A stretch of 64,000 bases of DNA from positions 496,001 to 560,000 of the forward strand of contig NZ_CP049867.1 of NCBI RefSeq assembly GCF_011299595.1. Direction: 5' to 3'. Source of the DNA: Nocardioides sp. HDW12B. Its GTDB lineage: Bacteria; Actinomycetota; Actinomycetes; Propionibacteriales; Nocardioidaceae. The notes under the pieces are model-generated. The model saw only the letters and a list, made by a program, of their open reading frames with translations. It was not told where the DNA came from and did not search any database. The translations under genes and the position numbers were made by a program. Of the stretch, positions 5,496 to 5,559 are shown piece by piece (position 1 is the first letter of the stretch; each line of letters starts with the position of its first letter).

Positions 5496-5528
5496 AGGTC
5501 AGGGGTTCGAATCCCCTCAGCTCCACCA
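5496..5528 (+). other. 3' fragment of ssrA (tmRNA) or a tRNA; probable attachment-site remnant
   Basis: The bases form a T-arm (stem AGGGG 5501-5505, loop TTCGAAT, stem CCCCT 5513-5517), then CAGCTCC (5518-5524), A and an encoded CCA (5526-5528). CAGCTCCACCA is the usual 3' end of tmRNA, whose 5' acceptor strand is GGGGCTG. No matching 5' acceptor strand, tag-peptide region or full tRNA body is present upstream. Integrases often use such 3' ends as attachment sites, and a lone 3' copy is what remains at the distal end of an integrated element. The terminator just downstream would then be the native ssrA terminator. Confidence 0.65.
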
Positions 5529-5535
5529 CCGGCAG

Positions 5536-5559
5536 GGCCCGCAGCCACGGCTGCGGGCC
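5536..5559 (+). terminator. Strong hairpin after the ssrA-like 3' fragment
   Basis: An 11-base perfect inverted repeat, GGCCCGCAGCC / GGCTGCGGGCC, with a tiny AC loop (in practice about ten pairs and a four-base loop), followed by TTCT. It lies eight bases after the CCA end. It looks like an intrinsic terminator in the plus direction, as expected behind a stable RNA gene. Confidence 0.7.

Follow-up and report, generated by a model that had tools for sequence, protein, structure and literature searches.

A displaced tRNA-Ala(CGC) 3' end as the probable attR of a 76.7 kb T4SS/MobF-type integrative and conjugative element with a CYP153 cassette in Nocardioides sp. HDW12B

Described systems and gene content of the element

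Seventeen putative T4SS-type integrative and conjugative elements (ICEs) of Actinobacteria were reported by Ghinet et al. (2011; PMC3218068). According to the portion of the article consulted, these ICEs have in common an integrase, a VirD4-like coupling protein, a VirB4-like protein and a MobF (TrwC) relaxase, and this set was used there for their detection. As far as its main text goes, the article mentions neither Nocardioides nor tRNA-Ala. As insertion of this sort into a tRNA gene is already known and actinobacterial T4SS-type ICEs were reported in 2011 (PMC3218068, the same portion), the element described here from the single-contig genome of Nocardioides sp. HDW12B (G000; 4,192,138 bases) is an ordinary but well-delimited case with catabolic cargo. 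The comparison with the 17 T4SS-type ICEs covers the core gene set only, and the CYP153 cargo and the block of Tad-type pilus genes are features of the G000 element.

AICEs, which are of the FtsK/TraB type, have in common with the G000 element an integrase and a xis gene at a tRNA gene, as is partly described in PMC3218068. Unlike AICEs, the G000 element encodes a VirD4/TraG-type coupling protein and a relaxase, and none of its 73 called genes had a Pfam match to FtsK_SpoIIIE or the like at an E-value of 0.001, so that the assignment to AICEs was rejected. In the part of PMC11706625 consulted, diDNase genes are described in AICEs and a prophage.

The plasmid pYJNG of Microbacterium sp. YJN-G (NZ_CP060403.1) bears a LysM-Tad-MobF block in the same order as the G000 element, with a relaxase of about 75% identity. 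Unlike the G000 element, pYJNG is a plasmid, and no homologue of the integrase, the VirB4-like protein or the coupling protein was detected at an E-value of 1e-10 in 137 of its 148.6 kb. This plasmid is recorded in PLSDB as non-mobilizable, although mobF is annotated. It also has another, more distant Tad locus, at which this relaxase is absent. In the literature on Nocardioides or Nocardioidaceae elements, actinobacterial T4SS ICEs, alkane islands, and Tad/Flp combined with conjugation, we found nothing describing the G000 element, nor a Nocardioidaceae ICE family with a Tad block, as judged by titles and abstract openings. No paper was found that treats CYP153 together with the term 'integrative and conjugative element'.

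The 73 genes inside the element (g19 to g91) were called by a simple script and all scanned against Pfam, and 10 proteins were taken into an NCBIfam scan. The relaxase, searched over the first 804 of its 1176 residues, matched TrwC with an E-value of 4.2e-82 and the MobF model of NCBIfam with 214.5 bits (cut-off 100), and was recognised as a relaxase on these grounds. The coupling protein was likewise recognised as one of the VirD4/TraG type, with matches to TraG-D_C (E-value 1.5e-26, 93.2 bits, cut-off 22) and T4SS-DNA_transf (73.6 bits, cut-off 20.1). The VirB4-like protein had no Pfam match, and its match to conju_CD1110 of NCBIfam had an E-value of 5.2e-16 but 58.1 bits against a cut-off of 325; its neighbour, a SCO6880-family protein, scored over the NCBIfam cut-off. 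The matches of a TrbL-like protein (E-value 3.3e-4, 20.9 bits, cut-off 25.9) and a ParB-like protein lay below the respective cut-offs. Pfam further found SSB, an ArdC N-terminal domain, Prim-Pol, an M23 peptidase and two DUF6112 proteins, and the Tad-type pilus block comprises a T2SSE ATPase, two T2SSF proteins, and TadE and Tad proteins. None of the called genes was recognised as encoding a prepilin peptidase.

The cargo includes the genes for an AraC regulator, a Fer2 ferredoxin, a CYP153-type P450, a ferredoxin reductase, a GMC oxidoreductase and an aldehyde dehydrogenase (the cassette in Table 1), together with those for an acyl-CoA dehydrogenase, three other P450s, several TetR regulators, two transposases, MFS and MMPL transporters and a MarR regulator. 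The CYP153 protein matched 5fyf_A (E-value 5.5e-211), 8b2p_A, annotated as 'P450 alkane hydroxylase' (1.9e-206), and 3rwl_A, annotated as 'CYP153A7' (9.9e-141), over the full length, and its gene is accompanied by those for Fer2, the reductase, the GMC oxidoreductase and the aldehyde dehydrogenase. Based on the full-length matches to solved enzymes, we regard this P450 as a CYP153-type predicted alkane hydroxylase.

A displaced tRNA 3' end and the extent of the element

The window, namely the whole stretch of 64,000 nucleotides analysed, corresponds to G000:C1:496001-560000. In the original prediction, a T-arm, an acceptor strand and a CCA lacking the rest of any tRNA or tmRNA, followed by an 11-base hairpin, were noted and interpreted as a copy of the ssrA 3' end at the right end of an integrated element. 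The 38-base tRNA 3' end (TGAGAAGGTCAGGGGTTCGAATCCCCTCAGCTCCACCA) is present without a tRNA or tmRNA body (Table 1): ARAGORN detected no tRNA or tmRNA at this position, with only tRNA-Leu (16985) and tRNA-Gln (39784) in the whole window, and Rfam at the gathering score found nothing there and only tRNA-Gln in the window. The fragment noted is real, but its start had been placed at 5496, 5 bases inside the true repeat. The hairpin was also recovered, as an inverted repeat, and lies 7 bases behind the fragment when counted, not 8. Window positions 5525-5575 fold with a free energy of -29.6 kcal/mol, at a z-score of -3.07 relative to shuffled sequences, of which 199 out of 200 folded less well. 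The hairpin probably served as the terminator of tRNA-Ala(CGC) before its separation from that gene. Two open reading frames on the minus strand (window 4568-5677 and 5425-5874) cross the fragment antisense, and one of them reads RGFEPLTF there; this reading is a false protein, the tRNA 3' end read backwards.

Allowing up to 3 mismatches, the 27-base string from the T-arm to CCA had a single match in the window (0 expected) and four in the whole genome, where its reversed control gave no match. Two of the four genomic matches were exact, i.e., the fragment itself and positions 424816-424842, which are the 3' end of a complete tRNA-Ala, and the two inexact ones were the tRNA-Ala genes with the anticodons GGC and TGC. 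ARAGORN identified the intact partner as tRNA-Ala with the anticodon CGC at G000:C1:424767-424842. When the two sites were aligned, exactly 38 bases were identical, from tRNA position 39 to CCA, with only scattered similarity outside; the two 38-mers (424805-424842 and 501491-501528) are on the same strand and 76,686 bp apart. No third copy of the core was found inside the element or elsewhere in 155 kb at 26 or more identities out of 38, and tandem elements in G000 by way of an imperfect internal core were rejected at the same threshold.

The original prediction had proposed a search to the left for a complete ssrA gene with the same 3' core, followed by an integrase; the gene found there was tRNA-Ala(CGC) and not ssrA. 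The ssrA of G000 is intact at 895703-896071, 394 kb to the right of the fragment, and its last bases are GGGTTCGATTCCCGCCAGCTCCACGA, which is a different core and does not include an encoded CCA. The proposal of an island in ssrA with the fragment as its right end could draw on a match to the tmRNA model over window positions 5446-5528, which covers the fragment but is weak (25.3 bits against a cut-off of 47), and on the acceptor string CAGCTCCACCA, remarked on in the original prediction, which we also take to resemble tmRNA ends. As the exact 38-base partner is in tRNA-Ala(CGC), with an integrase beside it, and the core differs from the 3' end of the ssrA gene in G000, we conclude that the fragment derives from tRNA-Ala(CGC), and ssrA was discarded as the insertion target; an island in ssrA is exceedingly improbable.

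Immediately after the tRNA, a 77-aa HTH_17 protein (excisionase-like, E-value 3.5e-12) and a 425-aa tyrosine integrase (Phage_integrase, E-value 5.5e-10) are encoded by the genes that begin 157 and 390 bp past tRNA-Ala(CGC), respectively. The G+C content is 0.7339 in the left flank, 0.6757 inside the element and 0.729 in the right flank. A degenerate 12-base motif occurs four times in 155 kb, at 424897, 424908, 501321 and 501332, making one pair with a spacing of 11 bp at each end, and none of the four copies is more than about 170 bp away from a core. The paired repeats are likely arm-type integrase sites. By eye, similar repeats were seen at the tRNA side of the elements of relatives (L076, L089, L082 and partly L094) and left of displaced cores (L083 and partly L098), and no repeat pair was seen in L077 or L090. 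The G000 element has a tyrosine integrase at a tRNA att site and direct-repeat ends, as required of a T4SS-type ICE. The part of the original prediction that placed the right end of an integrated element here, with the first 5.5 kb as its tail, is supported by the partner core, the integrase, the G+C step and the end repeats.

Table 1. Features of the element and its right border (plain numbers are window positions; those preceded by G000 are genome positions).
Feature	Position	Strand	Remark
Right-hand 5.5 kb of the 76.7 kb element G000:C1:424805-501528	1..5528	+	Integrase, relaxase and transfer genes are left of the window
C-terminal part of MFS transporter, cargo	1..921	+	Whole gene G000:495314-496921
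MMPL-family membrane transporter, cargo	1488..3848	-	Pfam scan
TetR-family regulator	3889..4479	-	TetR_N, E-value 3.2e-6, over cut-off
MarR-family regulator, last gene of the element	4766..5167	+	MarR_2, E-value 1.8e-7, over cut-off; start uncertain (4676 in the ORF list)
Two tandem 11-bp direct repeats, right end	5321..5343	+	Motif also at G000:424897 and 424908
Probable attR core, displaced 38-bp 3' end of tRNA-Ala(CGC)	5491..5528	+	Identical to G000:C1:424805-424842
11-bp hairpin just outside the element	5536..5559	+	Arms 5536-5546 and 5549-5559
lon, first chromosomal gene right of the element	5721..8072	+	Not beside tRNA-Ala in the relatives examined
AraC - ferredoxin - CYP153 - reductase - GMC oxidoreductase - aldehyde dehydrogenase cassette	G000:C1:475201-482429		L013

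Two explanations other than an ICE need to be weighed against these data. Same-isotype tRNA genes share much of their 3' halves, which would suit a chance match or a decayed tandem copy of tRNA-Ala with no element involved; however, the identity spans exactly from base 39 of the tRNA to CCA, and the G+C step, the integrase and the end repeats coincide with the two copies, leaving this explanation next to no probability. A prophage in tRNA-Ala would also account for this part of the locus, because temperate phages too may have a tyrosine integrase and a xis-like gene at a tRNA. On the other hand, none of the 73 called genes matched a phage structural or packaging family of Pfam at an E-value of 0.001, and the families of relaxase, coupling protein and pilus are present; we regard a prophage as very improbable.

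Altogether, we are confident that the fragment is attR of a 76.7 kb T4SS/MobF-type ICE inserted in tRNA-Ala(CGC). Recombination by the tyrosine integrase would have taken place between the tRNA 3' end carried by the element and that in the chromosome. The element's 3' end would have kept the tRNA whole and corresponds to attL, at the far left. The 38 bases that originally ended the gene, together with their terminator, would have been displaced by 76.7 kb, to just upstream of lon.

The same reading of attR is shared by the alternative that the element is a relic unable to move alone, either immobile or mobilizable only with help. The VirB4-like and TrbL-like genes scoring below the curated cut-offs are consistent with a relic, as are the two transposase genes in the cargo half, which resemble the IS481-annotated one of pYJNG. 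In contrast, the reading frames of the integrase, the xis-like protein, the relaxase (1176 aa) and the coupling protein are open, and both att cores and the arm repeats are present. We consider a relic rather unlikely. Excision and conjugative movement are predicted for the G000 element from its sequence, and we are inclined to think that it may be able to move today.

The integrase and the insertion site in relatives

Matches to the integrase at E-values of 1e-60 or lower were found in 89 of the 341 genomes of the family, and the 30 best-scoring loci, including that of G000, were examined; several further matches of at least 53% identity lie outside this sample. Among the 26 non-self loci with identities of 58-90%, the integrase gene was located just behind tRNA-Ala in 22 (16 CGC and 6 GGC), at a distance of 390-497 bp. 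Two others (L056 and L062) had a core without a tRNA body, and two had no tRNA in the flank covered, namely that of G024, in which tRNA-Ala(CGC) is 1.94 kb upstream, and L072, which is a fragment and lies on a contig of 5.3 kb. At identities of 46-47%, the three loci were associated with tRNA-Pro, tRNA-Met and no tRNA, respectively. Within this best-scoring sample, closeness to the integrase of G000 and the tRNA-Ala target appear to go together, as measured by the identity to one query. The Nocardioidaceae elements with a related integrase (e.g., L101 of Nocardioides pocheonensis, 89%) thus resemble the G000 element in the tRNA-Ala site, mostly at identities of at least 58%, and differ from it in contents. 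The 74.5 kb island of G083 (G083:C8:421309-495882; L123-L126), which occupies the same tRNA-Ala site, possesses homologues of P450, aldehyde dehydrogenase and acyl-CoA dehydrogenase, and neither the relaxase nor the transfer genes had a detected homologue in it; the island of G264 is 9.2 kb in size.

G000 itself has an integrase relative at G000:C1:3123634-3124272 (L019), with 49% identity over query residues 4-212, in an open 294-aa frame near tRNA-Met, and this is perhaps another element or remnant. Displaced tRNA-Ala cores were also seen in relatives, at G070:C46:116499 and 157234, at G335:C68:2190, in G227 (L056) and in G212 (L062). Some of them have an integrase behind (L056 and L062) or att-type arms on the right side (L083 and L098), which suggests that several elements have inserted in tandem into a single tRNA-Ala gene. 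For G335 and G070, tandem insertion is a suggestion only, as searches of L083 and L098 revealed no homologue of either xis or the integrase.

We surveyed 13 tRNA-Ala(CGC) loci from 15 chosen genomes. The genes in the left flank of G000 were upstream of tRNA-Ala(CGC) in 12 of the 13 loci. The flank examined behind the tRNA yielded neither a xis nor an integrase homologue in G001, G002, G004, G048, G062 and G067; G003 had a xis homologue and a short integrase match at the site, and G015 had arm-like DNA, with no integrase detected. The DNA downstream of the site was examined in five relatives (G001, G002, G003, G015 and G048). The G000 block from 520967 onward comes 5-6 kb downstream of the tRNA in G002 and G048, both with an empty tRNA-Ala site, and was not found within about 18 kb in G001 and G015, while the contig of G003 ends 4.2 kb behind the tRNA. 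The original prediction had expected the target gene directly upstream of lon in relatives free of the element; this expectation failed, as neither tRNA-Ala nor tmRNA was present within the 1.5 kb flanks of any of 29 other lon loci. A role of lon as the conserved right neighbour was ruled out, since lon is in other contexts in the relatives examined. On its right side the empty site has no base-for-base match, because neither lon nor the approximately 19 kb reaching to G000:520967 was found at the tRNA-Ala site of the relatives examined. The left flank represents the older arrangement; the right flank has changed and is only partly syntenic. The stretch between attR and the conserved block (G000:C1:501529-520966; window 5529-24966), which includes lon, has a chromosome-like G+C content.

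The Tad block, the CYP153 cassette and their relatives

The relatives of the relaxase comprised 91 matches at about 52% identity or more, from which 30 were chosen and supplemented with 10 distant controls (34-38%). Of the 30 chosen relatives (57-80% relaxase identity), 25 had the Tad block next to the relaxase, in divergent orientation in every case; in the stretch covered, it was not found in the other five (L143, L146, L153, L158 and L159). This divergent arrangement is a likeness between the G000 element and Nocardioidaceae elements with a related relaxase (up to 81% identity). No Tad block was found beside the 10 distant control relaxases, a count in which strongly diverged Tad genes would be missed. 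A listed integrase relative was located within 100 kb on the same contig for 31 of the 91 relaxase matches, at a median distance of 40 kb, compared with 37 kb in G000.

In the part of PMC12915292 consulted, tadA and tadE of Rhodococcus are named as genes for conjugal transfer; they are located on a contig of the chromosome and are conserved across other genomes of the species, and this case, as given there, tells against taking every Tad block as part of an ICE. Neither Tad nor Flp appears in the main text of PMC12857230.

Part of the cassette region showed 93.1% DNA identity over 4,347 bp to G261, which belongs to another genus of the same family, and the CYP153 P450 was 99% identical to its counterpart there. 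Such identity across genera would fit recent exchange of this part of the cassette. Considering strong matches only, with the weakest integrase and relaxase matches left out, a listed relaxase or integrase relative was present within 100 kb on the same contig for 12 of the 66 CYP153 matches with at least 81% identity and for 2 of the 26 with 64-70% identity. CYP153 was not accepted as a regular cargo of this ICE family, and no enrichment is claimed from these counts.

The nature of the odd fragment is settled by these analyses, and the exact ends are given for a 76.7 kb element with a CYP153 cassette. We tentatively suggest that the G000 element may belong to a large Nocardioidaceae ICE family, in which the Tad block, divergent from the MobF relaxase, would serve as the mating-contact apparatus and CYP153 cassettes would be carried between genera. 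The Tad block linked to the relaxase provides a testable idea on how actinobacterial T4SS-type ICEs may make mating contact.
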